Source: Diphasiastrum complanatum
Taxonomy: Eukaryota; Streptophyta; Lycopodiopsida; Lycopodiales; Lycopodiaceae
Direction: 5' to 3'
Length of the DNA: 64,000 nt
Assembly: GCA_029204225.1 (NCBI GenBank)
Contig: CM055092.1
Span: 70,442,838-70,506,837, forward strand
Part shown: positions 5,734 to 34,593 of the stretch, in pieces
Numbering within the stretch: position 1 is the first letter of the stretch
Layout: each line of letters starts with the position of its first letter
Notes under the pieces: generated by a model
Told to the model about the DNA's origin: nothing
The model's input: only the letters and a program-made list of their open reading frames with translations
The model's database searches: none
Translations under genes and position numbers: made by a program

Positions 5734-5898
5734 ATAAGTCCTTTCTCTCTATTAATGAATTACTAGAGAAGTCCGAAGTTCGCTTTCCTCGAAGATGGGG
5801 CACCTTGAGAGTACAGGCTTGATTTACAGTTTCCAGAATAAGCTGGAACGACTGCTTATGCTGATGTCGAGCATTGCAGGAAGAAAACTTGTCTATTG
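5734..5898. other. Breakpoint filler between P450 half and LTR fragment
   Basis: About 165 bases that match neither the P450 reading frame nor the copia LTR. They lie exactly between the broken end of the P450 and the cut end of the LTR fragment, so they are probably filler added at an inversion breakpoint, or a small unrelated insertion. Confidence 0.4.
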
Positions 5899-6172
5899 CT
5901 CGCTTACTAGCAGACTTGTGGATCACTATGAATCCTGATCACAGGACTCGTCTCGCACGTAGGCGGACTTCTTGTCTGTATTTTGTCTTGATTGCTTACT
6001 AGTATCAGACTACTTCATCTGTGTATGTTCTGTCAGGTGTCATCCAGTAAGTATATAGTTGCTCTATGTAACTTTAATATTAGAGTGATTAAGCATCTAG
6101 AACTAATCAGGAAATTACAAGAGTGGCGGATTAGCCATGACCCAGAGTGAAACTGCTGACGTCATGCCATCA
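5899..6172 (-). repeat. Copia LTR fragment, 5' part (minus orientation)
   Basis: The reverse complement aligns with the LTR at 38046-38733, from its first bases (TGATGGCATGACGTCA, here ending at 6172) to LTR position about 38326. The remaining LTR bases, from 38335 on, are those present as the truncated 5' LTR at 34214-34593. The two pieces add up to one LTR, lacking about 8 bp. Divergence from the 3' LTR copy is modest. Confidence 0.85.
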
Positions 6173-6488
6173 AATCATATATCTGTACTTTAATTGTGCG
6201 ACAACCGTAAGTAAACTTGTGTAGATGCTTTCAACAAATGTGAGGAAAATGGAAATATATACAGTAAGAGCTTTGTAACCCACACTAGAGCAAAGATGAA
6301 GATCCTAAATGCTTCGGAGGTGAAACCACTGCCTTGAATCAAAGTCTCATGTTCAAGATTTCACAAGTACATTTATTAGATAACTCTTCTCTCTACTCAT
6401 TTCAACAAAGCCCTCCATCCTCCAAAAATACATCCTCCATCCATAGTGCTCACACAAATTGGATCATCCTTTTTTAGCATGTACTACC

Positions 6489-6893
6489 TTTAATGAATTT
6501 TAGGGCATTTTGAGTTTTTTTTGACACATTCTGGACCACTATGCTCTAGAATGTACTGTCCAGAATGCACAATACATTCCGACCCATTTTGGTCATGCTC
6601 CAATAACAAAGTGTTCCCAAATCCATACTCAAGTGGGATGGAGCATGCAGGCTAGATTTTCTCTGTGTCCAATTTTAGGGAATTTTGAAATTTTTTTGAC
6701 ACGTTCTGGACCACTATGCTCTAGAGGGTACTGTCTAGAATGCACAATACATTCTGACATATTTTAGTCATGCTCCAAATTTCCAATTCTAGGCCATTTT
6801 GAAATTATTTTTACATGTTCAGGACCACTATGCTCCAAAATGTACTGTCCATAATGCACAATACATTCTAACCCATTTTGGTCATGCTCCAAA
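6489..6893. repeat. Three tandem copies of a ~110 bp repeat
   Basis: Copies begin near 6489, 6671 and 6786. Each contains a 'ttagggcattttga' motif, then 'ccactatgctctaga', a 'gtactgtccagaatgcac' motif and 'ttttggtcatgctcc'. The first two are separated by extra sequence. No coding potential. The 6173-6488 interval before it holds nothing recognised. Confidence 0.75.
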
Positions 6894-6922
6894 AATAGAG
6901 TGATCCGAAATCTACACTCAAG

Positions 6923-8097
6923 GCCCATGCTAGCATTAAGTGCCATACTATAACATCATATATTGGACATGTTATATATAGCACCATACTTCTACACCTT
7001 CCTTGAGTGATTAAATACCAAAATTATCTTCATGCACACTATCTTGACAAAAGCATTTCTTCAAGGAATTCAACCACTGAAACTCTTCCTGATTCCTGTA
7101 GACAAATCTAGCTTATTTGGTACCTAATATAGCTTGAAAAGAAAAATCTAGAAGCTTATGTGGCATTAATATGATATATCTACTTTGAGGAGATATCGCC
7201 AAGATTTTGTCTTCTGATTATCGAGTGCTTTCCGCAAGAACAATCGAGAAGTTATTGATAAACGCACCATCAAACCATTAGCTCCCTCCAAGGACTACAC
7301 TCAGCTACAAGACTTCCACCACCTACGACAATGACCCCGTGCAATAATGACAATAATAACTTTCACAAGAAAGACCAGCTGCTCTCAGAATTTCCCATGC
7401 TTGTAGGCTAACCGAAATGCTAGTAGTTTTCAGGTGCGTAATGATGGATTTTGGTAACCAATCTTTTTCACCCTTCCGATATTGATGTTAGATGAGATTC
7501 ACTAGTTTATTGAAAGTGGCATGAGGACACCATGAAAATCTACAGAAAGATAAGCTTATAAAATATATTTTCGGTTGGTTCACAACCATTATAGAGGAAC
7601 GGTGGGACATTTATAGTCAGCAATAACGGTGATGTCTATTCTGTATTTCTTGCTAATCTTCTTCAAGTTCATTATTTGATGATATTCTACTGCTGGCATT
7701 TCAAAATCTCAAAACGTAATTCTTCTGCATAAGATCATAAAAAACGATGATGATTTTCTTCCATTCTGACCACATGCAGACTGGAAAGGTAGTCTTATGA
7801 TCAGACATAACCTATGATTGTTAATGTGCATTCACATAACTATGATTCATTCCCATCAAGAGACATGAAATCCAACGATACATATGATACCTTATCACGA
7901 ACCCAAATAATTTGTATTTGATTGCTCTCTAGCTCTAATCCATATATCAACATGACACATATTGGACCAAACAGAAATGACTTTTTGTTCGATGAGTAAA
8001 TGGAAAAGAAGCTCACCTGCGCGATGCTGGATATCCACGATGGATCGTGGAAACAATATGCCTTATTGCAAAGGTAACAAGTTCTAGACTGAATTAT
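6923..8097. repeat. Segment C: paralogue of 39.2-40.6 kb and 51.1-53.7 kb
   Basis: From 'gacccatgctagcattaag' to 'gttctagactgaatta' this matches segment A (from about 39227) and segment B (from about 51073). C retains about 130 bp at 7216-7345 that A and B lack. At 8006-8012 the C copy reads continuously through the point where A carries a solo LTR and B a gag-only copia element, so C is an empty insertion site. C abuts a CACTA transposase fragment on its right. I recognise no protein in it. Confidence 0.8.
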
Positions 8098-9070
8098 CTG
8101 TTGCAAGACCAAATCTCACATTTCTTGACTCGTTGGCAAAGCTTGGATACTCTTTGTTGATGTGTTTCCATGCAGGTGAATCTGAAGGTACCCTCATCAT
8201 CCCATCCATAGAGGTATGGTGTGCATGCCAGTCCATAAGTTGTGCAAGAGATTCACAACAAAATAAACGTTGCAATCGTGAAATTACTAGAAAATGTCGT
8301 AAAACTTTGCACGTAATGGTTGCCCCTTGCAAATCATCTCTATATCGAGAAGTATCACAAATGGGACATTTCTTGAGTGATTCATACCTTCCTCAATATA
8401 AAATACAATCTTTTGGACATGCATGATAGTGCTTGTAGTCCATCCCGATGTTAGACAACATCTTTTGTGCCTCATCTCTTGTCTCAGGCATGACATTCCC
8501 TTCTGGGAAAATTTTGTTTTTCAATAGTCTGTACATGACAAAAGAAGTCATTGTAAAAAAAAATATCACTCGATGTCCAAATTGTAAATTTTACTTCAAA
8601 GCAAAACTGACAAGTAGATGAAAAAAATTTTACTCAAATAATAATGTGAGGCTTTGGTCACTCCATCTATATTTGGCTTGAAGATTTAATAGAAGTAGAG
8701 AACTCACCAAACGAGATGTCTTTGCTCTAGGATACAATGCGGTCTTTCATTCTTCTCGCAAGTTTCTTTCTTCTTTAGACAAAAGTGTCTCCTCATCTTG
8801 TTCATTGTGTCTAGCTGCAATATTGTTCTTGTACATATCATCCAACACGTCTCCCATGACTTCAAATTCATCATTCATTGGAAGCTCATTTTCATCGTTG
8901 GAACTTGTTTGCGAAGAAGTAGATCTAGATGAGCTAGATTCAAATGCATTAGTCTCTTGATTAATGCACTCATCAATTTCCATCATCTCTTTTAAGACTT
9001 GACGTAGACGACGAGGTATGTGGACCGTTGTATTGCATTCGTCGTCTACGTCGACCATTACGAGGATTAT
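8098..9070 (-). pseudogene. CACTA (En/Spm) transposase TNP2, N-terminal part, broken
   Basis: The minus strand resembles the TNP2-type transposase (Transposase_21 family) that cuts and moves CACTA elements. The upstream part, about 9070-8620, has an acidic Ser-rich stretch, then KTALYPRAKTS and LLLNLQAKYRWSDQSLTLLFE. This is the usual 'LYNLKA..GWSDKSF' region. The conserved core follows: DYKHYHACPKDCILY, a TGA stop, then KKCPICDTSRYRDD, KVLRHFLVISRLQRLF, then DSPAWKHINKEYPSFA and NVRFGLAT. The usual continuation (GFNPF and the catalytic region) is cut off where segment C begins. Stops and loss of the C-terminus make it inactive. Its orientation matches the SET-domain ORF upstream. Confidence 0.85.
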
Positions 9071-9129
9071 TGTCTCCAACACTAAATGAGGATGAAGAAT
9101 CCTATATATCAAAATAGCAAGAAGTAGGT

Positions 9130-9200
9130 TGAAACAATACTTGATAAACATTTCCTCCCAATACTTGATAGATCTAAATGTTGCATATGAATATAAATTA
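9130..9200 (-). repeat. Partial duplicate of the SET-domain ORF's 3' end
   Basis: The minus strand reads YATFRSIKYWEEMFIKYCFN, a diverged copy of YATRSIRFGEELFIKNSFN at the end of the SET-domain ORF (9473-9530). The DNA also aligns ('gatgaacagttcctcccc' against 'gataaacatttcctccca'). It lies directly upstream of the transposase coding region. It indicates an internal duplication of SET sequence within or next to the CACTA element. Confidence 0.65.
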
Positions 9201-9429
9201 CCTCTTAGTTTAAGAAGTATGAACATACCAATGTATCTATTAGACAGATTTGTCTTTTCAGCTTGTTAACATTCAAGAAATCAAAGGTGAATAATACTCC
9301 TAACATTTAATCTAGGCAAATGACGAATAATGCTCCTAACATTTGACATATTTAATGACACAAACCAAATACAATCAGGATGCATGGATTATACATCTCT
9401 ACATATCAACAAAATTCAAATCTTCACAT

Positions 9430-10338
9430 TTAACTTATTGTCTTTTGCAAACATTTGGGTAGAGGACGGTTGAAACTATTCTTGATGAACAGTTCCTCCC
9501 CAAACCTGATAGATCTAGTGGCATAGACCATTACATAAGTGCCCTTTACATTCCTAGTAAAATATTCTGCTTTTCCATTGGTGCGTTCTTCAAAATCACA
9601 ATTCGTCACATTGCTACAATTTATATATGTAGCGATGTTTCCATGCACATCTGGACGTCCATCAATGTATGTACAATTTGCCCTTGAGATGTTGCCTCCT
9701 TGCATGCGTTGCTCCTCTAAAGAACAAGCATTTGAATTCAAGCCATATACTTGCATCCTCCATTGGTGACGACACAAATCGTGCCAATCACCCCAATTGT
9801 ATTGAGGTCCTGCATATGGCATCAATGTCACAACAGTATTTAAAGGGACCTCAATACTACTCAATGCAAAAAGGCCCAAACCAGCATCAGGAAGGTGTTC
9901 ACTAGGCATGATCATGTACATTCGACCCCAATGCGTAAATGGTGTTCCATTTAATGGTAGTGGTGATTGGAGTGGCCAACACGAATATCTACTTCTAATA
10001 AAAGTTTTTACTAATGGTTGCAAGCTAGGTGGAAGAGGAAGTTCAGACAAAGAACCTAGAATGTCTTTTGACACATCAACAGTGCATAGTATTTTGCAAT
10101 TATCTTTCAAACTAGTCATCATACATCCAAGACGTGTTCTCTTTTTTAAAGGGGTGGTCAAGTTTGTGGAATCCACATGGAGTATCGTGGAGGACTCATG
10201 TGCAACATCTAGGATAGGTGTGGTTGGGTGGTAAGAACGTTCTAGAGATTTGGAGACATGGATTGAATCACAAGCCATTGACGAACTAATTATATCATGC
10301 AAGGGGTCATCATCAATAAGAGCATCATCTAGGGCCAA
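9430..10338 (-). CDS. SET-domain protein, possibly transposon-borne
   Basis: An uninterrupted frame of about 300 codons stays open to about 10410; no clear ATG is present, so a first exon is probably missing. The first ~110 residues are unremarkable (acidic, Ser-rich). The second half resembles a SET domain, the lysine methyltransferase fold. It has DAGLGLFALSSIEVPLNTVV (the GxG S-adenosylmethionine loop region). Next comes GNIATYINCSNVTNCDF, in place of the usual GNxxRFINHSCxPN. It ends with YATRSIRFGEELFIKNSFN (the usual 'A.RdI..GEEL..DY'). The asparagine-histidine motif and final Tyr are altered, so catalysis is doubtful. No zinc-binding post-SET cysteines follow. The gene runs in the same direction as the TNP2 remains and a fragment of its tail is repeated next to them. 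It was probably captured by, or belongs to, the CACTA element. Confidence 0.6.
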   Translation of the reverse strand: MALDDALIDDDPLHDIISSSMACDSIHVSKSLERSYHPTTPILDVAHESSTILHVDSTNLTTPLKKRTRLGCMMTSLKDNCKILCTVDVSKDILGSLSELPLPPSLQPLVKTFIRSRYSCWPLQSPLPLNGTPFTHWGRMYMIMPSEHLPDAGLGLFALSSIEVPLNTVVTLMPYAGPQYNWGDWHDLCRHQWRMQVYGLNSNACSLEEQRMQGGNISRANCTYIDGRPDVHGNIATYINCSNVTNCDFEERTNGKAEYFTRNVKGTYVMVYATRSIRFGEELFIKNSFNRPLPKCLQKTIS

Positions 10339-10467
10339 TGATGATCCAAAATCAATATTCGTGTGATTTATCCAGTCAATAATATTCTTGATCTCTCTTG
10401 CAACTCTTTTTCTTCAAACCAACTTATGGTCCTTCTTCTACAAAAGTTGAAAATGTTAGATGTATTA

Positions 10468-10470
<3 letters not shown>

Positions 10471-10524
<54 letters not shown>
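10471..10524. repeat. (CT)n microsatellite
   Basis: An almost pure CT run of about 27 units just upstream of the SET-domain ORF, followed by CA-rich sequence (10591-10620). The long Leu-Ser or Arg-Glu frames across it are artefacts of the dinucleotide. Confidence 0.95.
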
Positions 10525-10527
<3 letters not shown>

Positions 10528-10866
10528 CGCTCTCTCAAGCATGAAACATAAATTAATATATAACACAAACCTTAAACCAGTAGCATGAAACACACACACA
10601 AACACACACACCCACCCACACTGACCCTAAACACACATGAAGAGAAAAACAGAGAGAACATCATAGAGTGCTAATCAAAACTCCCGAACCACACGAATAT
10701 ATCCTACTACAGAATGTCACCACATGCTCTCTCCCTGCGACTTTTGGGCCTTTTTGTGGAACTCATCTTCCAACAAAAAACATTTGAACCACGCCTTTAA
10801 CGGAAAAAAACAAGGGCTACGCACCTTCCTAGAATTGGGAGTGTTGCTTACCTTTAACTCTTTCAT

Positions 10867-10867
<1 letters not shown>

Positions 10868-10951
<84 letters not shown>
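10868..10951. repeat. (CT)n microsatellite
   Basis: About 41 CT units. The ~80 bp before it ('tttaacggaa', 'cttcctagaattggga', 'ctctttcatg') are related to 17598-17685, which also precedes a (CT)n run. This suggests a repeat family carrying the microsatellite. Confidence 0.95.
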
Positions 10952-10953
<2 letters not shown>

Positions 10954-11011
10954 CGTGAATGAGTCTATTATGGGCGATCGAATATGGAAATCAAAATTAA
11001 TTACATCTGAT

Positions 11012-11170
11012 CATCTATTTGGATTTTTTTTTTTTAGAAGTAAGTGAGAGATTAACTTCATCTAATCATTCTATTTGGATTTTTCCTTTTAGAAGAAAGT
11101 GAGAGATTAACTTCATCTAAATATTATATTTGGATTTTTCCTTTTAGAAGCAAGTGAGAGATTAACTTCA
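11012..11170. repeat. Three tandem ~58 bp repeats
   Basis: The unit is 'tatttggatttttccttttag' followed by 'aagtgagagattaactt' and 'catctaatcattc'. It occurs three times in a row with few differences; the first copy has a poly-T run in place of 'ttcctttt'. It is non-coding. Confidence 0.85.
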
Positions 11171-13080
11171 AAGTATCGTGACACTCATCCTATCGCTCAA
11201 TATTTATTGGCCAAAGTATACTTGAAGTGTCCTAAGGGTCAAAAGATTAAAGCATTTCCAAAAAACACTGTAAAGAGTTTAGCTCTCATACTCTTGGATG
11301 CTCTGTGTGCACTCCATTGGCCCAAATATGATCGTTGACAATCCTCCTTGTCCAAATCCTAAGGCCTTTGCATTGTGTGCATGTACATGGTATCCTCTCA
11401 TTATATTCTGGTTGAAACTGGTCCAATAATCCAATTGCAAATTGCACAAATTCTTTCAGTGTCATTCAAGTGAAAATTGACAAATTCTAACATGTGACGA
11501 ATTGTAACATGTTACAAAAATTGACAAAATAGTCTTTGTACATTTAGTGCATTTTCAACCTTCATTTGTGATGGAGTGGTGTCTTGGCTTTCCAAAGAGC
11601 AATATACTATATCCAAAGAGCAAATCAGATTACATCATTATTACAAATAAAAAAATTATGGCATAAATCAATATATATACATGTGATGGATCAATAGGCG
11701 GTCTACATCGACTGATGGAAGAGCTTGAAGATGAACCAATCAATAGTTTTGATTGCTCCTTTTTTCTATGATAGAGCTCAATTCTTTATTCTTTCTCTAA
11801 ATCACATGGAGGTACGATAATTTTCCTAAAATTCATAATTCCAATCAAATGTCATTGTAAGAATAAATTTGCGAGAAAAATTATACACTCATATTCAAAT
11901 AACAAATAAAGTGCAATTGATGTCAATATCAGTAACAATATATACCTGCTGTTGCGATCATGAGATGAATCATTATCTGACGATGATGACATCATCGATG
12001 ACATACACACACTGTAGCCAGCTACTCTATACCACATCATAAGTAGTCAATATGAGACCATATGTTCTGAACAAATATAATAAAATTTGTTAAAGACATG
12101 CCAACATCTAATCCATGTATATTCTACTTATGCTTAATGTAAATCTAATATTCTAGTAACATTGTTATCAAGAAAATTGCTTGGGTGGGGCAACACATGA
12201 CGAGCAATAAAAATGAGGTTCATACTGACAATTGTTAGACATTAGTAGATAGTGCGTGTAGGCCTATCTCAACTAATTTAAAAACCACATAGCAGTCAGT
12301 GTTCGAAGCTCTCAGTTTAAACTCTTGTCTAAGATGAGTGATGATCTCACTCGATCTTTCTTTCAAGATGGAATGATCAAAATCAAACAATCAGTCATAT
12401 ACTCAATTGATTCATTGCCCACTCAATCACTCATTTGAGTTGCTTTTATGCAAGAAATCACATACTAGATAACACACCATTGATCAACATCTTTATTACA
12501 ATGCTAAATGATATTTCAAGTAATTACTATGATTTTATATAAGGTTATATAGGTCACACACCAACAATCAAAAAGATTTATCATATAGTCCACATATCAC
12601 TAAGGTCCTCAATATAACATAAATGCTTTTGATCATGAATCTAAATGATCCCATGCAACCATTCAAGAGGCCACATGACAAAAACAAAAAAAAAAAAAAT
12701 TTGACCATGTAATTATGTCATCAAATTATATCAAATCTATGACACCTAGATTATTAATAAACTAAATGTTTTATGACATCACTGATTTGACATAATATTG
12801 TGTCATAAAATCTTAAAAAACTTGTCAAATTACTTGTTTAATAATAATTGTACTATTTCTTATCTCATGATTTTCTCTTGTATGTCAAATCTCAAGAAAA
12901 ATAAAATTTATAACAATATAAAACTAGTTTTAACAATTAAATACTACCATAATGATCTTTGAATTGATTTTTTTACATTCCATCATATTAAAAAATATAT
13001 TTAATGTAAAATCCTACAATAAAATATTCTCATAAAATCTAGAAAAGATTATGAGAATATTGAATGACATTTGAAGCATG
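11171..13080. other. AT-rich intergenic DNA
   Basis: About 1.9 kb of AT-rich sequence with no frame that looks coding on either strand, and no repeat I could pair within the window. Confidence 0.6.
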
Positions 13081-13125
13081 CCAGCCCATGTGAGGGACCC
13101 TCTCACGTGCCAAGAGAGAAAAAAA

Positions 13126-13160
13126 AATGCGTGGATATCGCGTGGATAATCCACGCGAAA
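13126..13160. repeat. Palindromic TGGATAATCCA motif, upstream copies
   Basis: Contains 'gcgtggatatcgcg' and the palindrome 'cgcgtggataatccacgcg' (TGGATAATCCA core), about 350 bp before the ATG of the 13500-14556 gene. The same motif recurs many times downstream of the gene (15274-15790). Confidence 0.8.
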
Positions 13161-13499
13161 CTTGAATGCCAATAAAATGGCATTTGCGTGAGCATTCTTG
13201 CCCCTCTTCTTTTGCTTTCAAGTTTTATAGGTTTTCTAATCTAGTGTTTAGTGCTCTTGCTTGCTATTGCTCTTCTAAGCTCTATAGATCTTGTTTGCTT
13301 GCTTGCTTGCTTTTGGTTGCTCTTCATTGCTAGTGATATTGCTTTTGCTTTTGCTTGCTCTATTGATCTTCTTTGTTCTTGCTTACTATTAATCTATTGC
13401 TTTCTATTCATTGCTTACTCTTCTAATCTAAAAGTCTTCAATACTCTTTCACTCCCATTCTCCACTACTTTCTAGCTTTTAAAGTTTTTCTTTGATACA

Positions 13500-14556
13500 A
13501 TGTCTTCAAGTGGTAGGTCAAGTGGAAGGTCAAGTGGGAGACTATCTAGGAGAAGAGCTCGTCAGGAGCCCGAAGAATATAATCAAGAGTGGTTTGAGAA
13601 TCTATCTCCTCAACATAGAGATAGAATAAAAAATCTTGTGTTATATTCTTCAGGCGAGAGAAGAGCTTCCGAAGGAGCCCCTTCCCAAGAATCGTGTAGT
13701 GTGTATTATGATCTTCATCCACGTAGTGGAGTTATAAAAAATACGCGTGGCAATGTAGTTCATGCCCGTTTGCATGATTTAGTTGTTTTATATTTTGGTA
13801 AAGATTACATGATCGATTGGTCCTCCCAATCGCTTGACGACAAAAATAAAATAATAGAGACTTTGTATTTTGAATTCCCTTAATCCAATGCTTTTAGTAG
13901 GACTTGGGCCTTGAATACAATGTGCCTTTGGATTCGAAACAAAAGGCAATTGATGAGAAGAGCCGTGAGGAATCCCAAGTATCCCACGAAGCCTGGATGG
14001 TGCTCCAAAAGGGATGGGAGGAAGGTGAAAGGGGAATTGTTGCAAAACAATCCCCAAAAGTATGAACTACAATGTATGGCTACTGTCGAGAAGCTCTTAA
14101 AACATGGCCAAAGTCACTTGGGATCGGGAGGAAGGGGCAATCTAGAGGCCCAATTTGTAAGTGCATTATTTTTTAATACGATTCTATTTTTGTAGTGAGA
14201 TTGTTAATGTTTTTATTGCTAAACTATGTTTTTTTGTTGAATGTAGCTTAGTGATTTTGGAAGACACATGACCGCCGCGGAGTACAAGCAAGGTTACGAT
14301 CGTGGATATGCCAGCCTTAAGGCTTTTATGGAATCCCATGGATTGTTTCCAATCGTAAACTCTTAGCCTTTATTGTTTTGTGATTGTTTACTTTGTGGTT
14401 TGCAAGTAAGTTTAATCTAAATTTAATTAAATCTTTGATTCTATTTTGTAGAGAGGCTCTACAACTTCAAGTGTTTGTGATGTGGAAGAGAATGTGGAAG
14501 AGAACGTGGAAGAGTATGTGAATGAGAGAGAAGGGGTTGAATGTAAGACCTTGTAG
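13500..14556 (+). pseudogene. Three-exon gene, Ptta/En-Spm-like accessory transposon protein (one stop)
   Basis: Exons 13500-14156, 14247-14354 and 14452-14556 are all in phase 0, with introns gtaagt...gtag and gtaaac...gtag. The frame begins MSSSGRSSGRSSGR, a basic Ser/Arg/Gly-rich start, and holds one TAA at 13881-13883. Without that stop it would give about 290 residues. Around the stop it reads SSQSLDDKNKIIETLYFEFP, then FSRTWALNTMCLWIRNKRQ. This recalls the 'W..v....K..i...l...F......K.fR..LK' pattern of plant Ptta/En-Spm accessory proteins. Exon 2 has FGRHMTAAEYKQGYDRGYASL; exon 3 is acidic with VEENVEENVEEY repeats. The palindrome arrays on both sides suggest a DNA-transposon ORF whose product binds subterminal repeats. 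The family assignment is inference; the exon structure is well supported. Confidence 0.55.
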
Positions 14557-15273
14557 AAGGCAATGTAGGAAGAGAGAATTTATTCTCTCATCAATGTACT
14601 TGTTTTTAATTCAATCAATATAATGTTTTGGCATCACATCATATTTGCAAAAATTTTGAATGCATATATTTTTAATCCATGAATGCAAATGTATAGTCTA
14701 TTGAATGCACATCTATTGATGTATTCAAGGCAATGTATAGTCTATATAATGCACATCTATGCAATGCAAATGTATCCATTGATGAATTCAATGCAATGTA
14801 TCTATTTCAGCACATGATTTGCATGCTAGAATGCACAATAAAAAGTAATGGAAATAGATAACACATTAAGTTATCAACTAAATATCAAATGAATCAAAAT
14901 AAATGTGAATTTACCTTTACTATTGTATCTCCATTGTTTTGCAATCTTTGCTTTTCCTTTTGCATGCACTTGATCTTTGAATCCTTTGCAATGAAAGCTC
15001 ATTTTTCATTTTTCATATGCAAACCTACATCACAAACAAAAAAGATCTTAAAACTAATGATCACAAAACACATACTATTAACATCCATCAATGAACTTAA
15101 AATCCTAAACAATATCAATCTTCTCACTCACATTCATCCTCATCTCATTCTCACTCCCATCTATACTCTCTTTTTCTCTCTCTCACACAACACAAAAATA
15201 AAAAGTAGCCTCTACTTTTGGAGCGAATCACATTTTGGTTCGCACCAAACGTTTTTTTTTTGGACAAAAAATT
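14557..15273. other. AT-rich 3' flank
   Basis: Non-coding. A short pattern of 'atgcacatctat', 'gcaatgtatag' and 'aatgcaaatgta' recurs at 14660-14800, giving a loose AT-rich repeat. No gene seen. Confidence 0.5.
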
Positions 15274-15790
15274 TTGCGTGGATAATCCATGCAAATTCCA
15301 GAAACCTTTTTGTGTGGATACCGCGTGGATATAAATAAAAAATTATCCACGTGGTATCCACGGCCTCAACTCTCTGGATTTTGCATGGATAAAGTGAATT
15401 TTGCATGGATAATCCACACATGGATAATTATCCATGCAGTATCCACGCGAAGCCGAGCCTTTTTTATTTAAGTTTTTACTATGGCGTGGATTATCCACAC
15501 GAAATTAGAATTCCTATTTCCGGCTCTGGGTGTCGGAGGTTTGCCCGACTGCCGGTAGTTAGACTTGGTGTGGATAATCCACATGTGGATAATCTACGCA
15601 TTTTGAATTTCACGACATCCGGCCGATCTGCTACCGGAAAAGACATTTGCGTGGAACATCCACGCGTGGATAATCCACGAGCTTGTATCCACGCGTATAT
15701 CCATGCCAATCCCTGGCTGTATCCACGCGAATTTTTTTGCCTGCACGTCCTCCTTTGTATTGTGCGTTGATATTTGCGTGGATATTTGCT
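15274..15790. repeat. Array of palindromic TGGATAATCCA / GTGGATA motifs
   Basis: About 500 bp packed with the inverted motif TGGATAATCCA and half sites (GTGGATA, TATCCAC). Full or near-full palindromes lie near 15279, 15395, 15485 (variant centre TTA), 15570, 15590 and 15670, with half sites between. Spacing is irregular and spacers differ, which excludes a CRISPR array. Subterminal arrays of short inverted motifs are typical of plant DNA transposons such as CACTA, where the accessory protein binds them. No terminal inverted repeat was identified. Confidence 0.75.
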
Positions 15791-15895
15791 ATATGTGTTC
15801 TTGTGAGGCTGGGGAGGAGTCTAAATAGGTCTACCAATCTATTATTAGTAAGTAGAATAACGGATTCAGGTCAAAAGATAGAGTTTTAGTCAAAC

Positions 15896-16985
15896 CAATG
15901 CCAAATTATCGATAGGAAAAGCAAGATCTTTGCACTCAGCAAGAGACATGGATACTTATATAGATTGGCACATTGTTATTCTGATACTATTCAGCCTTGA
16001 AAACCTTTGTTCTTTTCAATAAAGCAGTTACAATGGCATCATCTTTTAGGACACTTGAATCATACATTTGTTTGATACATTTTTAATAAATTCCTAGCAC
16101 ATGATATCGACTATCCAACCGACAAAGTTGAACTCCTTGTCTGTCATAGCTGCATCCTTGGAAAGCCGACTAGGATCCCCTTTAGATCAAGTCATAGGCA
16201 TGCAACAAAAGATTTGCTAGATGTTGTTCATTCAAATATATGTGGTCCAACGCAAACTTTGTCATTGCTTGATGCAAAGTATTTTATTACCTTTATTGAT
16301 GAATATTCTAGAAGAACAGTTGTTTATTTCATTAAGCAAAAATCAGAGGCTTTCAACAAGTTTTGATAATTCAAAGAGAAAATCAATCTGGCAAAAGAAT
16401 TAAAGCACTGAGGTCTAACAATGGGGGAGAATACATCTATTCCGAATTCAGTCGAATGGTCTTGCTGAGAGAAAGAACAGAACCTTAGTCGAATCGACAA
16501 AGTGCATGCTAGCACATGTGACACTTTTGAAGTCCTTTTGGGCTAAAGCAGTTTCAACTGCAGCTTACATTCAGAGTATTAAAGTCCTCTCAGACAAAAC
16601 ACCATTTGAAATTTGGACAAGCTCCAAATCTTCTTTAGCGAACTTACGAGTTTTTGGATGTATCGCTTATGAACAAATACCGCATGATCTCAAGGAGAAG
16701 CTCGCCTTCCAAAGTACCAAATCAATTTTTATCAGCTCCACTACTTCAGATCAAGCTTATAAGCTGTATGATTCTATCAAGTTGAAGAAATTTACTAGTC
16801 GGGATGTCGTCTTCATCAAAGATTAGTTTATCGACCTCAAAGGTAAGGGCAAAGCTCATATAGTCGAACTTTCTAGTACGAACATTGACTATTCCTATTG
16901 AAGGGACTTCGTCCACTTTAGTGACTTCGGCCACTTCGGCTACTTCGGAGACTTCGGGCAATTTGGTCATGTCGTTGAATGACAA
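15896..16985 (+). pseudogene. Ty1/copia integrase remnant
   Basis: The pre-integrase region (QWHHLLGHLNHTF; CHSCILGKPTRIPF) is followed by integrase core motifs DLLDVVHSNICGPTQ and YFITFIDEYSRRTVVYF. Then comes LRSNNGGEY, where the catalytic Asp of 'RSDNGGEY' is Asn. After YSEF the sequence jumps to NGLAERKNRTLVES, skipping about 25 residues before the catalytic Glu, so a small deletion is present. The frame continues through FWAKAVSTAAYIQ and LRVFGCIAYEQIP to a stop at about 16826. At 16914-16967 a 9-bp repeat (gacttcggc-like, about five units) has expanded. Stops, a frameshift and the D-to-N change mark a dead copy. No reverse transcriptase follows. Confidence 0.85.
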
Positions 16986-17134
16986 TTAATTGTTCCACTC
17001 ATTTTGAAGCTAAAGACTTGCCCTAACCCTATAGCAAGTAAATTTCCAAGAAGTACTAACTAGATGTATGCCAGCTCACTAAAGCCCATTGGCCATTATG
17101 ATCTACGACCTAGTTAGTTGTCCTACTATTGGAC

Positions 17135-17837: not shown

Positions 17838-17841
<4 letters not shown>

Positions 17842-24418: not shown

Positions 24419-24429
24419 GAAAAATTCGC

Positions 24430-25160
24430 AAGAGCTTCGCTAGCACAAGTGAGGAATGAATCGAATTCAGCCAACTTATAGGTGAATATGGTGGGTCCAT
24501 CACACTGAATAGTAGTTGGGCTGATCATTTATGAACAAAAATTTGCAAGCATGTACAATACTGTAAAAATAGGCTATAAAAATCTCGGCGAAGGTTTCTA
24601 GGGATCTGAACCTATCAGGCGAACGTTTTACAGGGCTGGCGAAGGATGAACCTTTGCCCAGGAGGGTCCTTCGCCCATGTACTGTCATAAATGCTTTTTT
24701 CCACAATCTGAACCTATGGACAACCTAATTTTGACATTTTAAGATCATCTAGTAGGTTGGTGAAGGTTCATAATGATGTTATGATGCTCAGCGAAGGTTT
24801 CCAAAATGGCATATCACTGAACATTCACCTGACTCAAAAATTGAATTTTCTCTTGTCAGAAACCTTTGCCCACCTCAATTTAGATAAATCAAGGGTGGAT
24901 GTACAGTCTAAAATCTCAGCGAAGGTTTCTGATACTGTTTTGGCCAAATCGGCCCAAAACAGTGGTTTTCTAAGTCACTTTCCATAAAAATATTGTGCTT
25001 ATGTTTCCTTATGTTGATGACTTCTTGACTTTTGCTCATCAGTCTTTCCTTATTTTTTTTCATTTTTATTTTTTTTCAACTGTCTTTTTCCAAAAAAAGT
25101 CAACAAATTAAATATTGAGAACAAATAAATGAAAACAAATAAAATGAAAAAATATATTGA
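24430..25160 (-). other. Non-coding spacer with GGCGAAGGTT-like motifs
   Basis: The spacer between integrase and the extra ORF. It carries about six copies or variants of GGCGAAGGTT (near 24592, 24617, 24639, 24761, 24790, 24922) in the same orientation. The same motif is frequent in the 5' leader of the element (28600-29240). Otherwise AT-rich and non-coding. Confidence 0.6.
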
Positions 25161-25162
25161 GA

Positions 25163-26245
25163 TCAAGCTTGCTGAATTGGCGGAGCAGGCTGCCGAAACT
25201 TGCGTAATCGGTTGCCATTTACCAGAGTATCAAATCGTTTCCCATCCAAGTGCTCAAGAATTATTGTGCCATAGTTCAGGATTTCCTTCACTTTATATGG
25301 GCCTTCCCCAGTAAACTTTAACTTACCCTTGATCAGCTTGGTTTTGTACATCAATGCAAGATCTCCTGCTTCCAGATCTTTCTTATGCAATCACCGATCG
25401 TGCCATGCCTTGCGGCGGGCTTTCTCTGCTGCTAAGGCATGAACTGCCATCAATCAGGTTTCACATAATTTGTGCAATGCATCATGGCGAATTTGTAAAG
25501 ACTGATCATCATTTAATCGTTCCGTTGCTGCTATGCATAAAGATGGGATTAAAAATTCAATTGGCATAACAAGATCTTGACCATAAACCAGTTGAAAAGG
25601 TGTTTGATTTGTACTATTTTTGTAAGCGGGTCTGAATGCCCATAATGCTGCATACAGTTTATGTTCCCAATCAGACTGACTCGCTTCAACTGTCTTTGTC
25701 ATAATGGTGCAAAGAACCTTATTTGAAGATTTAGCTTGGCCATTCCCTCTAGGATAATAGGGAGTACTAAATCTGTGTATAACAAAAAAGTCTTTGAATA
25801 AACACTTTATTGTTTGATTAACAAAGTGTGTGCCCCGATCACTGACAATTTTGATCGGACATCCAAATCTGACTAAAATATTTTCATATAGAAACTTAGC
25901 TGTAGATTTCGCATCAGCTACTTTGACAGCTTTGGCTTCAACCCACTTGGTCATATAATCAGTTGCGACGATAATGTATCGAGCCTGAGATCCTTGAGCA
26001 GCGGGATGAATATGACCAACATAATCCAATCCCGATTTTTCAAATGGTGCTTGCGATAAAACCAGATGTAAGGGTTCATAATTCTGTCGAGTAGGCCGTC
26101 GTGCTCGCTGGCAGACATCACATGTCTGAATAAAATTTTCTGTGTCCTTATGAAGCGTAGGCCACCAACAACCGGATTGCAAAAGTTTGCGAACAGTAAT
26201 ATTTGTAGAGAAGTGTCCTCCACCCATGCCATCATGTGAAAACAT
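25163..26245 (-). pseudogene. Ty3/gypsy integrase
   Basis: The zinc-binding segment ends in CWWPTLHKDTENFIQTCDVC, and catalytic-core motifs FEKSGLDYVG (first Asp) and VSDRGTHFVN (second Asp) follow. At the third position it reads GNGQAKSSNK where GNGQAESSNK is expected, so the catalytic Glu is Lys. The C-terminal domain at 25390-25163 has KTKLIKGKLKFTGEGPYKV and GNRLRKFR. The frame is broken near 25400-25454 between core and tail. It inserts retrotransposon cDNA into the genome in active elements. This copy should be inactive given E-to-K and the frame break. Confidence 0.9.
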
Positions 26246-26247
26246 GA

Positions 26248-26521
26248 TTAGATCTGGGAGTCATTCGGTTGTCCTAGCATTAGGTACTCAACAATATATG
26301 ACGCCCACTCAGGTACTACTTCAATATAAAACAACGCAACATCTGGCAGTTCATCATCCACTTCAGTATTAACTGGTGCGGATTCAATTCGTGAAACGTG
26401 ATTGGCTAGATAATGTTGCTTCCCCTTTCTGACCACAATTCAAAAGTCAAATTTAGTCAATAGTAATAACCATCTTGCAATACGTCCAGTATTACACATC
26501 TTATTTACCAAGTAAAGTAAC
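26248..26521 (-). pseudogene. RNase H C-terminal remnant
   Basis: Reads LVNKMCNTGRIARWLLLLTK, then a stop, then VVRKGKQHYLANHVSRIES and VDDELPDVALFYIEVVPEWA. This is the end of gypsy RNase H and the linker to integrase. The upstream reverse transcriptase and most of RNase H are missing. The sequence changes at about 26522 into an inverted gag segment. Confidence 0.8.
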
Positions 26522-27262
26522 GGAGCTATGGTAATGATCAGGAAGGTGGATCTTCAGAACAGTATGCCATTTATGCTGCCGCTCAACAACAAGCCTCGAG
26601 AAATTGGGCCAGAGCACCACTTGGATGCTTTGCTTGTGGAGAAAATCACAGAGTTGTAGAATGCCCAAATAAAGAAAAATTTGTACCATTCTGTAGTGAC
26701 TGTGGATATGGGCATTGCTATAAAGACTGTCCAACAAGACCGAAGCCACCGCCAACTACAGTACCTGTAAATTTGATAACAATCAAGCAAGGATCAGTAG
26801 CTCATAATAAACCAAGTGCACCCTTGATGGTGGTCACCAGAGCAAAAGAGCAAAAAGAACCATTAGTGGATTCAGTACCTGCTGATTCTATACCATTGAA
26901 CGATACACCAATAGCATCAGAAGTTTATCCAAATCTTAATGCAGAAAAACGAAGATATCAGGATATGAGACAGTGGATTAAGCATCTGCAAGAAGACGAT
27001 GAACTTGAAGCTGCTAAAGTAACAACTGAAGTTCGGTCTTCACCATTGCAGCCTTCAAGAAATTTACGTACAGATATGAATGATCAATTACATCATCACG
27101 AACAACCCTTCAAGATGACGGAACCGGAAGCAACGCATACAGAATTACTCATAAATATTTTGTCTAGCAAGACCAATATTTCATTGGGAGAGCTCCTAAA
27201 GTTGGTGCCAAAAGCAAAAGAAGTCTTAGCGCAAAAGTTAGCTCAAGAAGAATCAGAAGACC
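26522..27262 (+). pseudogene. Inverted gag-3'/pre-protease segment inside the gypsy element
   Basis: On the plus strand, opposite to the rest of the element, the frame reads YGNDQEGGSSEQYAIY. Two zinc-knuckle-like motifs follow (CFACGENHRVVEC, CSDCGYGHCYKDC), then MVVTRAKEQ and LLKLVPKAKEVLAQKL, typical of the gag-protease linker. Turning it round joins ...MEPEPYG of the minus-strand gag to NDQEGGSSEQ in frame. It is therefore an inverted part of the same gene. The open frame extends past the junction into antisense gag to 27351. Confidence 0.8.
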
Positions 27263-28361
27263 GTAAGGTTCTGGTTCCATCAAATTGGCAGGAGGAGCGG
27301 AGTGCTTTGGTGGGGCAAGCAAGGCTAGATGCTCCGGGTATCCAAGAGTAGATTGTCGTAGTATTCCTGCTGGATTGCCTCCATATTGTGGATCTCGGTA
27401 TCCCATCTGGGCATACTGTTGCTGAATCATCCGAGGGTTGAAGTTGCAAAAGGCAGTCTCATGGTCAGGTGAATTACACATATGGCAAACACTGATTCCC
27501 ATTCATTTTTTCAATTGAGGACACTTGTTCACTGTGTGATTTCTTGTACAAATAGAACAGACATTTTCCTTGGTAGGAAAAGTCTTTGCAAACTTCTCAG
27601 GTTTCTTGTTTGCTTCTCCGTGGAAATTTTCCAATGCTTTGATCTTCTCATCAAATTGCAACTGCAACTTTTCCATATGTTTCTGCTGGGTCTTCCCAAG
27701 TTTCTCGAACTCATTGAGCATCATTTCTGCAGTAGCATTGGCATTCGTTGATGCAATAGTGGTGGATGTTGTAGTAGTCTGCCCTGCTATATAAGGCAAC
27801 ATTCTGACATTCGGCTCATTATCTGAATCTTCGTCCTCCTTTCGAATTGCATCGTCCATCGCATTTTGCAAAAGTGCGTACTCATTATGGTGTTTCAGTT
27901 CACGTATGATCCGTTTAGGTAGACCTGAGAAAAACCACATAATCATGTCATTTTCATTAATCAGCTCAGGCTCACATGTAGATCTAAGATGTTTCACCCT
28001 TTCGATGTAATCTCGAACCATTTCCCACTTTCCAATTTTAATTTTACTTCTTCCATAAACTTCTGTGGTTTGAACCGTGTAATAAGGGCTCGTTTAACAG
28101 CCTCCCAATCTGTACGGTCAGTTTCATCTTGGTTATAGTACCAATCTTGTGCTGCACCTGTAAGGCCATAGGAAACAGCTTAGGTTTATCTTGAGGATAA
28201 ATCTCACCAAAGACCTCATAGGATTCAGCATAGATATGAAGAAATCGAACTGGATCTGTTAATCCATTATATTTGGGTAGATCCAATCGGGGTGCTCTTC
28301 TAACAATAATTGGATTGACCTCCTGTGGAGCACCTCCAGGAGCACGTCCAGAGGCAGCCAT
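27263..28361 (-). pseudogene. Ty3/gypsy gag
   Basis: Starts MAASGRAPGGAPQEVNPIIV, then PRLDLPKYNGLTDPVRFLH and the retrotransposon gag domain (AAQDWYYNQDETDRTDWEAV, ITRFKP). Next come YIERVKHLRSTCEPELI and MIMWFFSGLPKRIIRELKHH, a coiled stretch, and zinc knuckles CSICTRNHTVNKC and CHMCNSPDHETAFC. Gag forms the particle that packages element RNA in the cytoplasm. At least two frameshifts (near 28150 and 28035) and a TGA before MGISV disable it. The C-terminal part is inverted (26522-27262). Confidence 0.85.
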
Positions 28362-29558
28362 TTAGATCAAATTGATAATGTGATTGGATATAGATTTTTC
28401 CAAAAACTATCTCAGATTAGATCTACTAGCTCTATTCCACTTTTCAAGAATCTGATTCTATATGATGAAAACCTACCCAAAATTTGATCAATCAATACTT
28501 CTCAAGAATGATAAATCTCTCAGAGTCCAATTCAGAATATATCAGATCTGATCCAAATTTTGACAGAGACTTGATTTGGAAAATCAGAAACTAGAAATAG
28601 GGCTGGCGAAGGTTTTCTAGGCGAAGGTTAGCTCGGCGAAGGTTCAACAATGCTATTTTGGGATAAAAACTCTCTGAACACTTTTCTGGCAATTTCTTGG
28701 GAAATAACCTTCACCGATTTCTCAGATGGAAGATCTAACACAGATAAAACTATGGACAACCGGGTGAAGGTTTCTGACACAAGAAAATACAGTTTTTGTG
28801 ATCTGGCGAGGGTAAAAATCAAGATTTTTTGTGATCTGATCAAGATAAATCTTTGCCGAACTCAAAAATAGTATTTTTATATAAATAGAATGTTCTGAAA
28901 ACTCGGCGAAGGTTCTAGCAAAGGATCAAGAGTAATATTGGTAATTTTGCAAAAAAGTGACTTTTTTGACAAAAATATGACAATATGACAACTGATCCTC
29001 TGAAAACCTTTCTATTTTTGGTATTATTCTTTGTCGACTTGGCAGTAGATAGATCTGAATCACATCTGAGCACAGTGAATTGGGCAAAGATTCTTTTTCT
29101 GTATTTTTTAGGATTTTGATAATTTTTGGTGTTTTTTGGTGGTTTTTCTGATGTTTCTAGAAATCTGCCGGGAATTAATCTTTGCCCTTCAAATTGAGGG
29201 TTTTGTAACCAAAACCGAACGGGTATGCAACTCGGCGAAGATTTCTTAAAAGAGGGTAAAAAGTTCTAGGGTCTGATGACGATTTTTGCCTCTTTTTGAC
29301 CAAATTTGATAGATTTGACCGATTTTTGTTATTTTCTCTGATATCTCAAATCCAAATAGATCTTAAGATTAGTGATCTGAATAGATTTTCCTGTTTGATA
29401 ATCAGATTAGATTTCAAACAAGCAAATCCACTCAAAATCTAGCAAAATCAATCCAAACTATCCCTACAATGCAGTTTTAACGTTATTCATGCCACGACAA
29501 GATGCCTAATGCAAACTAACCATCAACCAAGCATGCTGCAGACTGAAAAATTGGCGTA
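28362..29558 (-). promoter_or_regulatory. Gypsy 5' untranslated leader with iterated GGCGAAGGTT
   Basis: About 1.2 kb between the primer-binding site and gag. GGCGAAGGTT or one-base variants occur near 28607, 28620, 28635, 28757, 28804, 28901 and 29232, with reverse forms near 28704. The motif also fills the spacer before the extra ORF. Its role is unknown; RNA packaging, recombination or protein binding are possible (inference). Confidence 0.5.
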
Positions 29559-29578
29559 GCTCCCCGGGAACGGCACCA
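29559..29578 (-). promoter_or_regulatory. Gypsy primer-binding site
   Basis: The coding strand reads TGGTGCCGTTCCCGGGGAGC four bases inside LTR 2. It resembles the tRNA-Asp-type PBS (TGGCGCCGTTGCCGGGGA) common in plant Ty3 elements, with two differences in the first 18 bases. Confidence 0.8.
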
Positions 29579-29582
29579 AAAT

Positions 29583-30328
29583 TGTAGTGGGTTTCTTTCC
29601 TTGCCTAACCTGAATCCAAGATCTAGTCAATCTAGCATCGAAGAGACGAAATTAGTTGTCACGCGGAGGTTCGTTCCCATGAGAGCGATAGTATAGTTCA
29701 GATTTCAACATGAATGGAGGATCTAACACTAACATCCATTAACACTAAGCATTAACCCTACTTCCATTCACCCTAAATCCACAACAATGATAGAAGCTTA
29801 CTCTTCTCTCTCTCCCTTTCTCTCTCACAAAAAGCATAAGAAATAGCAATCCCAATAATGATCAAGTCCAACAATTAGCAAAATCCAAAGAAAGCATGAG
29901 AAATGGAGGAAAAGAGAGGAGGAGCAAGGACATTCATCAATCCATTTCTAAAGAGAACCAATCTGCTTTATTGAAATGAGGAAATGAACATCAGGAGCAA
30001 CTCGAGTTGGTCCCTTTTTATAGTAGAGAAGAGGACCCTGGCCTCTGAATCCTATTGGTCCAGTCTGGCCTCTCTTTTTATTCAAATTTAAAAAAGTGTG
30101 GGAACCATCAAAATTGGAGGGAAACCCAACTTTATTCACTAACTTGACATTTAGGCCCTACGACATTAAAAGTCCCGCAAAAAGGCCTAAAGTCCTTTTA
30201 TTGACTTTTAACTAATCAATCAAATAACTATGTGGTCATCAGGTTGGACTTACATACGCATGGTGCCAAATCCCTCTCACTTATTAACTAGGTTTAGGGT
30301 TACCTTGGGATCCGCAAACCCTCCAACA
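29583..30328 (-). repeat. Ty3/gypsy LTR 2 (5' LTR of the inner element)
   Basis: Aligns over its length with LTR 1. On the left it meets the primer-binding site of the inner element, on the right the polypurine tract of the outer, truncated copy. It therefore serves as 5' LTR for one and 3' LTR for the other. Confidence 0.9.
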
Positions 30329-30334
30329 GTATCC

Positions 30335-33308
30335 CCCACCAAAACTGGTGGCGGTCCCACAACACCTGCAATATGCAATTATTGGGGACTTTTATTGGCT
30401 TCGCGCCGAATCTTGATTTAATGATATTGCACCTTCTCCATAAAGTCAAGGCGTGTAGTATTGAAATCCAAATTATGCGACAGGAAACAACGGTGGGCTT
30501 CGACAATCCACTTGGAAGTTGTCCATGAGGTGAAGCAGGATTCCCAAGAGCCTCCCATCATAGCCGCACGTAAATACAGTCGAGCAATCGACATCTGATC
30601 TTTGATTTGCTCTGAGGCCATCGGCTTATTTGGATCAAATGCCAGGGTAGGAAGGCAATCGTCCCATTTGGTTGCCACTGACGCCAACAGAGTTAGATCT
30701 TTTGCAAACATTGCCGATTGTTGCACCGTTGGATGCGGAGAGTGGACATACTCTCTCTGATATGCCTGTAAGGCCCAGTGGAAATCCACTGAAATATTTC
30801 AGTTGTAAGTCTGGTGGATGATTGGCCAATTGGGCATATGGATGTTGATTTTATCCATAGCCAATCCCAAATCTTTCCATTTTTGTCTTCGCGGCATTGG
30901 CACGTAATAAGGATCTACCCGCAACTGGCGAGGGCTGGCGACGTAACTCCTAATTGATTCCGGAGTTTTCTCGAAAACCGTGATTCTCCATGCCGGCTGC
31001 TCTCCCAATGCAGGTATTTTGTCCAATTCTTTGCCGGCCTCGATCTCAGAGGTCTTAAATTTGAGAAGCCATCCACCATGCGAGGACTCATGTGGATGCT
31101 GCTTTAAGAAGATCTGGATCTGGTCCTCGACGCTGATGGGCCTTCTGAATAACTGGCTTGTGCTTGATGAGGATGGACCCGCTTGTACTGCGGGTATAGT
31201 TGGCGGTTAATCTGCTAGATCTGGAGCTCTCCCCTGGTCCATGCTTGAATCAACCCTTGTATCCATCTGTACAGCTTCTTGGCGCGAATGGGATTATTGC
31301 GGCATGACCGGGATAGGGATTTGTGGTCCGTCTTCCAACACTTGAGCGGCGGCTTTTTCATAAGCGTTGATGGTCTCTTTTGCCTTTTCCAACTCGGTTG
31401 AAGCTGCTCCTTTGAACCTATCAAAGCTTTGGAATCCCTGAAGGGCCACTTTGTATGTTTCCACCTTCTTGAACAAATATGAAATCTCCGTTGGTGTGAC
31501 CAGATGATCGGGTATTTGTGTTTGCAGATATGCATCACGCTCAAGGGTCGTCGCATCCAATTCACCTTGAAGCCGTGTGCGATGTTTTTCGGCCATTTGT
31601 AATTTCCCCTTTAGTAGCTGCACCTGTTGCTTGGCATCTTGCATTGTCTTATCTCCCTGATCCTGTGCAGTTGTCAGGGCATTTTGCAGGGAGCTGATGT
31701 AGGTTTCCAAGCAATCAGCTTGTTGCTGGGCCAATGTCTTTTCGCTTTCAGCCTTTTCTTCATGTTGCTTGGCTATCTTCACCTCTCGATCCAGCTGGAC
31801 AATTTTTGGGCTGATCAGAGTGTTTTCAGATCCTAAAACAGAGATCCTCTGTTCCATTTTCTTTTGTTTATCCAGCATAGACTGGATGACCTACCCAAGG
31901 CTTGAAACTATCCCAAGAGCATCACCAGAATCGATAGTCGTGGAGGTGGCAGCAGCAGGAGACCCTGATCGTACTCTCCGTGGTAGGCGTGGAATAGGTG
32001 CCAAAGTCTCTTCTTCTTCAAAAATATCCTCGTCTTCAAACCTTTCAGGCACCATGGCGTCGAACTGCTTTGGTGACTTGACAGCTATGTTGACCTGAAG
32101 TGTGGCTGGGCTACCCTGCATGGGTGGTTGCTGACTGGCATCTTCGACACCAACAGTAGCTTCATGGATATGCTCGAATCCTCTTCTAGGGGATTGGTGT
32201 TCAAAGGGTGTTGGGCTCTGGGGCATCTCAAAGATTTCGGTGGCCCCAAGGGGGTCGGAATCATCGAACATATCCATGAAGAACTGTGTGTTGGGTGAGG
32301 TTGCTTCGGTGTGCGGGGGTGTGGCGGCCTGGGCAGTTGTGATGAGAATGGTAGGCCCAATGGTCACATACTGTCCTTGTCTGTGAGCAAAGGCGAGGGA
32401 CGCATCAGAGGTGAGGGGAATGGGAAGTTCAGTGCGAACAGCAGCAGGGGGTGGAAGCGCAGTTGACGAGGTATGCCTAGTACGATGTCATGACGCGGAA
32501 GACGAGTCAGGAATTACGATCTCGCTGCGTGGACGACGACGACTATGAGAACTTGAGGCCTGGTGAAATGACTCGGCTGGTGCTTCTTCGTAAACCGAAA
32601 GCACAAAATCCAGGTGGAAGCCATGGATTTTGCTTTCTAAGTGAGAAGCAGCTAAGAGGGACAATAGAGAGCCAGCGGCGAACTAATGCTTTGTATTGGC
32701 CTTAATAGCTCGGTTGAGCTCACCAGAAACAGTCTTGAACCAGTTATATGGTTCAAGAGGGGCTTTGGCCACCTTGATGTTGGACTCCACTATCGTGTGA
32801 AGGATTTGAGATGTGATGCGATCTTTCCTGAGGTTGCCAACCATCAGGAAATGATTCAACAATTGGGCAGCGGCGTGGATGGAAGGCTCAGTGATGGCTT
32901 CCAGAAGGTAACCATCATTAGTCCAATGCAAATCGCTGGTGAGGTCAATGTATGGCTTGATGGCCTGTTTGGCGTGCTTGTGATTGGGTGAGGCGTGCCT
33001 ACCAGATGAGATTCCTATAGCTGCAAGTGCGGCCTCAGTGACGCGCACCTTTGTGTGGCTCCTTGGAAGGTGATGTAATACCTGGATTTCTCTTCCTTCC
33101 ACGTACTGAAGGCAAGAGTGATGAAATCCATATTGATGTGTCCCGAAAAGGCTCTCTCATGAATACCCATTGCAGTAAGTAGAGGCTCCTCAAGGGTCAT
33201 CCACTGAGTGACCATGCTTGTGCTAAGAAGAATCATTATGTCCGTTGCAGATGGGACATCACGATGGATAGTATAGCGCGGAGACTGGGAAGTATCGGTA
33301 GAAGACAT
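30335..33308 (-). pseudogene. Extra 3' ORF of the gypsy element, copy 2
   Basis: A second copy of the long ORF, with MSSTDTSQS at 33308. The coiled coil (31878-31294) is intact here: heptad-rich sequence with QQQADCLETYISSLQNALTT and QLLKGKLQMAEKHRTRLQ, about 190 residues. Stops differ from copy 1 (TAG after VSSLG near 31894; a stop in the LAD/PPT linker near 31208). A TAG after AIKANTKH is shared with copy 1, where the preceding codon is CAG. Overall length is about 990 codons. Similarity to copy 1 extends about 60 bp upstream of the ATG and stops at a P450 exon. Confidence 0.65.
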
Positions 33309-33364
33309 GATGATCATAAACGAATTATAACTGCATGAGAATGTATCAGAAGGCAATGCAGGAG

Positions 33365-34213
33365 GAGTTTCTTCTGACCTGAATTTGGTCACAAGATGAT
33401 GAAGGAACACTACGATTTCTAGCTTTGCCAGCTCGTATCCTGCGCATTGTCTGGCCCTCCTCCAAATACCATAAAGTTGTTGATGGTCGGAGACATGGTC
33501 TGGTTCCATATGAAATACATGAGTCTATTAATAGTAAGCACATAGACTTATTGCAATTTGTATGATGCAATAGTAAGCACCTAGACTTATTGCAATTTGT
33601 AAGATGCAGCGAGCGAGCATACAGAAAGAATGAATGAAAGTTGACACGGTTAAAGAAACTGTGCCTGTTGAGTACCTTCCAACGCCATGGGTTGAACGCC
33701 AAAGGGTCTTCGTAGATGTCTCCATCAAGGTGCACCGCACGGGCGTAAGCGAACACAGTCCATCCTTTTGGGATAGTGTAGCCTGATGAGGAAATTCAGT
33801 ACAGTACGGCCTTTAGTATTATGTTCAAGAAATTAGTAGCACTCCAAGCAAGGAGTTAAGCCTTTAACCATTGATCAACGGACCGCACCCATCTAATTCT
33901 TCTGTTCTCGTAATTCATTTTGAGATTTCTCTTAGCACTTGAACTATCCGAACATACAAGTACCTTGATACTGAATGTCCTCTATTGGTGTGCGGTATAA
34001 TCCATGACTGACGTTTGTAAGTCTGAGCGTCTCATAGATAACCTGTAGAAGCAAAAGCAGGACGAAGAGTATGGAAAAGTAAGGCCTAGGCAATTGATCT
34101 CGGGGTTAAACTGGGAGAAAAAGATTTAATGCTGCAGGCTGCTTACGTGCAATGTAAAAGGCATGCTATTCTTGTAGTCATCCCATGACAGTCTTTCCCC
34201 CTTTCGGTTTCTT
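33365..34213 (-). pseudogene. Cytochrome P450 pseudogene, 3' half
   Basis: Four exons are visible. Exon 34213-34147 reads GERLSWDDYKNSMPFTLH. Exon 34042-33964 is the K helix, VIYETLRLTNVSHG with the ExxR pair. Exon 33782-33676 holds GWTVFAYARAVHLDGD and DPLAFNPWRWK (the PERF-equivalent). Exon ~33500-33365 has NNFMVFGGG, then ARQCAGYELAKLEIVVF, the haem-binding Cys loop. Splice sites GT/AG flank the first three. One base is lost between FGGG and ARQC (frameshift). The gene lacks everything before the I helix, exactly what lies at 5174-5733. Its end after VTKFRSEE is replaced by the gypsy element, and its start abuts a copia LTR piece. Family: clan 85, probably steroid/terpenoid oxidation (inference). 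Confidence 0.88.
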
Positions 34214-34593
34214 TCGTGAGAGAACTGTATTTCTCTCACGCCAACGCACTGTGTGGATATGCATGCAGTGCTTGAAGAATCAAAGAAATCAATAGATGAT
34301 CTTGTAGCCTTTGTGCACATCTGATCTTGAATGCAAATGTGTCTGCTATTATTCGTGTGTCTGATTTTCCCATTCATTTCAATTATGCACATTGGTTGAA
34401 TTTGTTGAATGTTGCATTAATTTATAAATGTAGATCAGCAGTGTCTGACTACATTTTGGAGGACTGTAGGAGTGATTTAGTTGGCAGTGTCTAGCAACCA
34501 CATTTGAACTCCATCTGAAACAAGTTGAATCGCGGTTGCTTCGCTTTCGTGAATATTTCACGACTGCAAACACATTTTTTCGCATCCTCATCA
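34214..34593 (+). repeat. Copia 5' LTR, 3' part only
   Basis: Aligns with 38335-38733 of the 3' LTR and ends ...cgcatcctcatca directly before the primer-binding site. The first ~289 bp of the LTR are missing here and are found reversed at 5899-6172. It begins in a 10-bp inverted repeat (cgtgagagaa/ttctctcacg). Confidence 0.9.

Follow-up and report, generated by a model that had tools for sequence, protein, structure and literature searches.

The passages on inversions in PMC10893937 describe that engineered plant inversions are formed mostly by classical non-homologous end joining, that spontaneous inversions can be formed in the same way, and that the junctions often carry deletions. In rice, the inversions of one study ranged in size from 100 bp to 129 kb (PMC10893937). 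A second point of comparison is provided by rearrangements at inverted repeats that form hairpins or cruciforms, as treated in parts of PMC10164571.

Here we describe a segment of 28,315 bp (5899..34213) within the 64,000-bp stretch of DNA that was analysed as a whole, hereafter the window (C1:70442838-70506837, in a genome of 1.74 Gb in 5176 contigs). The original prediction of an inversion of about 28 kb that split one P450 gene and one copia LTR is confirmed, since the un-inverted junctions were found in all ten of the other P450 loci and in all six LTR copies that were examined. Our alignments support a single inversion as the source of both splits, and we consider it very probable that the segment was freed by two double-strand breaks and rejoined in the reverse orientation by end joining. 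Because paralogs within this genome still carry the ancestral junctions, the breaks are legible without recourse to a second individual.

The divided P450 pseudogene

Within the stretch examined, the 5' part of the pseudogene occupies 5192..5898 (+ strand) and was recognised by its matches to PF00067 and to CYP90B1, which we take to be a clan 85 P450, by its stops and by paralog alignments. It comprises an exon at about 5192-5329 with two stops and the I-helix exon at 5484-5733 with one stop, both on the + strand. A sequence resembling a splice acceptor ends at about 5879, from which we infer that the following stretch (5734-5898, + strand) is made up of an intron and of 19 nt from the start of the exon after it. 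Homology to the paralogs L033 and L034 extends upstream on this side to about 4526. The 3' part of the same pseudogene (33365..34213, - strand) lacks 1 bp in the haem loop, and its 3' end is cut by a repeat at about 33363. With three stops and the haem-loop deletion, the window holds neither an open frame nor an intact haem-binding loop of a functional cytochrome P450.

In the profile search the left exon matched positions 227-300 of PF00067 and the right-hand exons matched positions 327-354 (E 0.045), 354-388 and 409-438 (E 0.0016), where two of the four matching pieces (327-354 and 409-438) lie below the curated cut-off. The short first right-hand exon, taken alone, gave no match. Read as a pseudogene, the pieces match the profile in order. 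Three of them cover residues 241-291, 322-348 (E 0.19) and 348-383 of CYP90B1, which are consecutive and non-overlapping. The plant enzyme CYP90B1 (PDB 6A15) was also the top solved-structure match for three separate P450 pieces of the window; unlike CYP90B1, the window P450 is a pseudogene, and it is placed here no finer than clan-85-like.

A genome search with 33650-34213 yielded 30 match rows and 19 first-look candidates. Twelve P450 loci were cut out, namely the window itself (L031), the contig at 18.01 Mb (L032) and ten others (L033-L042). The comparison leaves aside a further copy near 590712 of C4, as well as the weaker rows that fell on C7 (14438259), C8 and C19 or on two small contigs. 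Using local alignment and blastn, we found that 5897/5898 adjoins 34213 with 1-2 bp between them in each of the ten other loci; in L040-L042 the blastn match ended at 5891, and the local alignment reaches 5897/5898 there. Hence 5734-5898 is P450 sequence and the left break lies between 5898 and 5899. It had been predicted correctly that both the P450 and the LTR are split here, but the breakpoint had been put between 5733 and 5734, and the roughly 165 bp that follow (5734-5898) had been mistaken for filler.

Both halves of the pseudogene rank the paralogs identically (L033, L034, L035, L036, then L040-L042, then L037-L039), and the trees of the left and right halves have the same topology. The split uniting the window with L033 and L034 is modestly supported, with values of 83 (left) and 52 (right). 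Among the ten paralogs, the stop RLT*VID in the left half and the 1-bp haem-loop deletion in the right half are each shared with L033 and L034 only. Together with the common ranking, a lesion of this distribution in each half indicates that both halves come from one gene copy, for which the shared lesions are firmer ground than the tree support. The possibility of parts from clearly different genes is thus answered in the negative. It could still be argued that the P450 fragments are unrelated to each other, as are the LTR fragments, and that they are complementary in appearance only, given that each family is present in several or many copies in the genome. However, the P450 halves agree in ranking, topology and lesions and both breaks are exactly complementary, which leaves this explanation with a practically negligible probability.

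The divided LTR and its hairpins

The 5' portion of the LTR is located at 5899..6190 (- strand), its outer end having been lost earlier, at 6190. The 3' portion of the same LTR (34214..34594, + strand) is followed at about 34597 by a motif which we take to be like a primer-binding site, and by remains of retrotransposon coding sequence. Further downstream, at 36415-36954, the domain search found an SH3-like domain and an integrase match below the cut-off. Copia-type is used here as a putative label, for which integrase upstream of reverse transcriptase would be the defining order.

In a self-comparison of the window, the two portions (5899-6190, - strand, and 34214-34593, + strand) match adjoining parts of a copy at 38 kb, with exactly 8 bp missing between them, as had been predicted. 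The same 8 bp, ACATCCAC, stand between the LTR parts in six of six copies examined (L003-L007 and the 38-kb copy) and are lacking from the split LTR of the window. A 26-bp pattern across the intact LTR junction, with at most 3 mismatches, occurs 1013 times genome-wide (498+515), whereas the reversed control gave 0 matches.

In two of these copies, L005 and L006, the sequence outside the right breakpoint is joined to 5899 and continues in order to window positions 10938 and 12714, respectively; the match of L006 to the inverted interior stops at 12714. The LTR edge at 6190 is common to the window, L005 and L006, and the LTR homology in L003 and L004 extends further, so that a single copy was ancestral to L005, L006 and the window. 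By this comparison the outer end of the LTR was already lost before the inversion. The 12 kb that were read at L005 and L006 contained no P450, and the genome search gave no P450 row within 28 kb of them.

A hairpin with a perfect stem of 10 bp (34215..34240, + strand; fold z -3.91) has its foot 1 bp from the right junction. It is one of six hairpins in the 64-kb window with a stem of at least 10 and a loop of 3-12. Of the 64000 positions, 36 are as close (<=1 bp) to the foot of such a hairpin, which gives about 0.1% for two breaks, a value that is post hoc and uncorrected for other features. Single-stranded DNA folds of all four intact copies tested (L003, L004, L005 and L007) contain the hairpin with a stem of 8-10 bp and, directly before it, a second hairpin, which is weaker in L007 (z -3.25 to -5.14). 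The 8 lost LTR bases begin with two that, in L003, still belong to the end of the first hairpin; the remaining six make up the linker that separates the hairpins. Folding revealed no such structure at the P450 break site (z +1.75 in L033) or at the left junction of the window (z -0.20).

The LTR hairpin is kept with few changes at 34215-34240, 38336-38361 and 50284-50309 of the window and in L003-L008, L013 and L019, as found with a pattern that allowed 4 substitutions and would miss more diverged copies. Possibly it represents a retrotransposon element at the RNA or DNA level. As a post hoc conjecture, the two neighbouring hairpins might have helped the LTR to break. That the twin-hairpin linker of this LTR family, with its 1013 intact-junction copies by pattern, would be a preferential fragile site which seeds small inversions and truncations genome-wide seems rather unlikely to us.

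The junctions and an un-inverted relative

Based on the alignments to paralogs and LTR copies, the left inversion junction (between 5898 and 5899) joins P450 exon to LTR without microhomology, and the right one (between 34213 and 34214) joins P450 exon to LTR with 1 base that can be assigned to either side. Compared with the intact junctions, 0-1 bp of the P450 and 8-9 bp of the LTR were lost at the breakpoints, and the junction alignments contain no inserted sequence. The derived junctions reciprocally swap the ends of two ancestral junctions, as in an inversion with two breaks; the ancestral junctions were found at different loci. The interval and its surroundings contain many repeats, which might speak for homologous recombination between inverted repeats (NAHR). 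However, inverted homologous repeats are absent at both breakpoints, as 5700-6300 and 33300-34700 have no common match at E 1e-3 in the self-comparison of the window, and NAHR, which would be extremely improbable, was rejected on this ground. The small losses, a shared base of <=1 bp, the lack of an insert and the lack of a common repeat fit two double-strand breaks followed by end joining. One break would have occurred in an exon of the dead clan-85-like P450 and the other in the decayed copia-type LTR, for the most part within the linker that separates its two hairpins. The ends would then have been rejoined with the segment reversed, presumably by classical non-homologous end joining, and both junctions would stem from one event.

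A relative of the un-inverted arrangement is found at C1:18.129-18.149 Mb. There, the window stretches 6100-6950, 9089-12068, 14845-15679, 17289-17421, 22699-25426, 30960-32146 and 32150-34215 follow each other in this order on the + strand, and 34215 is followed by 5898 running back to 4526. From the order and strand of these stretches it follows that, with the P450 5' half taken as reference, the interior is oriented opposite to the window, as expected for an inversion; this applies to the sampled stretches, between which about 7 kb (1745 + 5147 bp) are unread. The interval is about 18 kb long at this locus versus 28 kb in the window, with parts missing. C1:18.129 Mb is absent among the exact matches listed for the 26-bp pattern of the intact LTR junction, and at the spacing predicted from 28 kb no LTR was found in a 4-kb stretch (L043), which holds other repeats. 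No single locus with both ancestral junctions was seen among the loci examined, the LTR join at C1:18.129 Mb being unread.

Related copies of the P450, the LTR and the interior are clustered at C1:18.0-18.7 Mb and C1:81.2-81.9 Mb, suggesting segmental duplication. Both these clusters and the lack of a locus with the two ancestral junctions could point to a multi-step or replication-based rearrangement within a segmental-duplication cluster, for instance by template switching between copies. We regard this as quite improbable, since the junctions are reciprocal and clean, with no duplication or insertion, and each P450 half carries a lesion common to L033 and L034 only.

Placement of the locus in the assembly also has to be considered. 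Window positions 1-43379 are 99.55% identical to C1:18046291-18002886 (- strand), 52 Mb apart. A 10-kb run of N lies directly before the window start, and another of the same length borders the end of the other copy. Within the first 36 kb the mismatches number 0-4 per 2 kb; beyond this they rise to 22, 25 and 15 per 2 kb and fall to 3 in the last 1.4 kb, where 200 N columns were left out of the count. The 43-kb overlap probably represents the unmerged overlapping ends of two contigs, with one locus placed twice; a recent duplication would be the alternative. The chromosomal position of the window is therefore doubtful. The second contig reproduces each inversion junction exactly over 201 bp, which offers weak independent support, as this contig probably contains the same locus.

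The gap beside the window start and the near-identical copy beside another gap mark a region that is hard to assemble, and a misjoin might have made both chimeric junctions. However, both junctions are exact in both contigs, though reads may be shared, and a misjoin would have had to create a reciprocal pair of junctions that lack no more than 8-9 bp and 0-1 bp. Thus, an assembly error appears very improbable to us.

Order of events and comparison with known inversions

The window shares the stops KEY*HLL and SLPL*IPG with L033, L036 and L034, the last of which differs in one residue; L035 and L037-L042 lack them. Moreover, blastn revealed that the repeat which cuts the P450 3' end is shared by the window, L033, L034 and L036. 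These three paralogs are un-inverted at the P450 and yet carry the lesions, which indicates that the death of the gene preceded the inversion. The inversion as the cause of the P450 death was ruled out, since the stops, the haem-loop deletion and the 3' truncation are common with un-inverted copies. In the trees of the P450 halves, the window's own branch measures 0.019 substitutions per site for the left half and 0.012 for the right; taking this branch length as an upper bound, the inversion would date to at most about 1-2% divergence. As far as can be read from the DNA, the inversion broke nothing that was still working, and no function is proposed for it.

The segment has further contents. 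An open frame of 302 aa at 9433-10338 (- strand) matches a SET domain, and the zinc-binding and core domains of an integrase from a second type of retrotransposon lie at 25457-26245 (- strand). Window positions 20658-24395 and 29574-33363 are direct copies of about 3.7 kb that are 92-94% alike, one of which ends where the P450 loses its 3' end.

Overall, we consider this a clean natural inversion, and the un-inverted junctions in the paralogs make its order relative to the gene death readable, with the death first. The position of the LTR break between two hairpins gives a testable idea on where retrotransposon-rich plant genomes break. In this position it resembles the hairpin and cruciform rearrangements at inverted repeats described in the relevant parts of PMC10164571. 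Compared with those systems, the stems in the window are about 10 bp and there is one event, for which a hairpin cause is a conjecture.

The window is like the plant inversions covered in the corresponding passages of PMC10893937 in its two breaks on one chromosome, its small junction deletions and its size, which is within the range of rice. It is thus an ordinary, known kind of rearrangement that is well preserved. In contrast to the inversions described in those passages, both ancestral junctions of the window survive in paralogs of the same genome.
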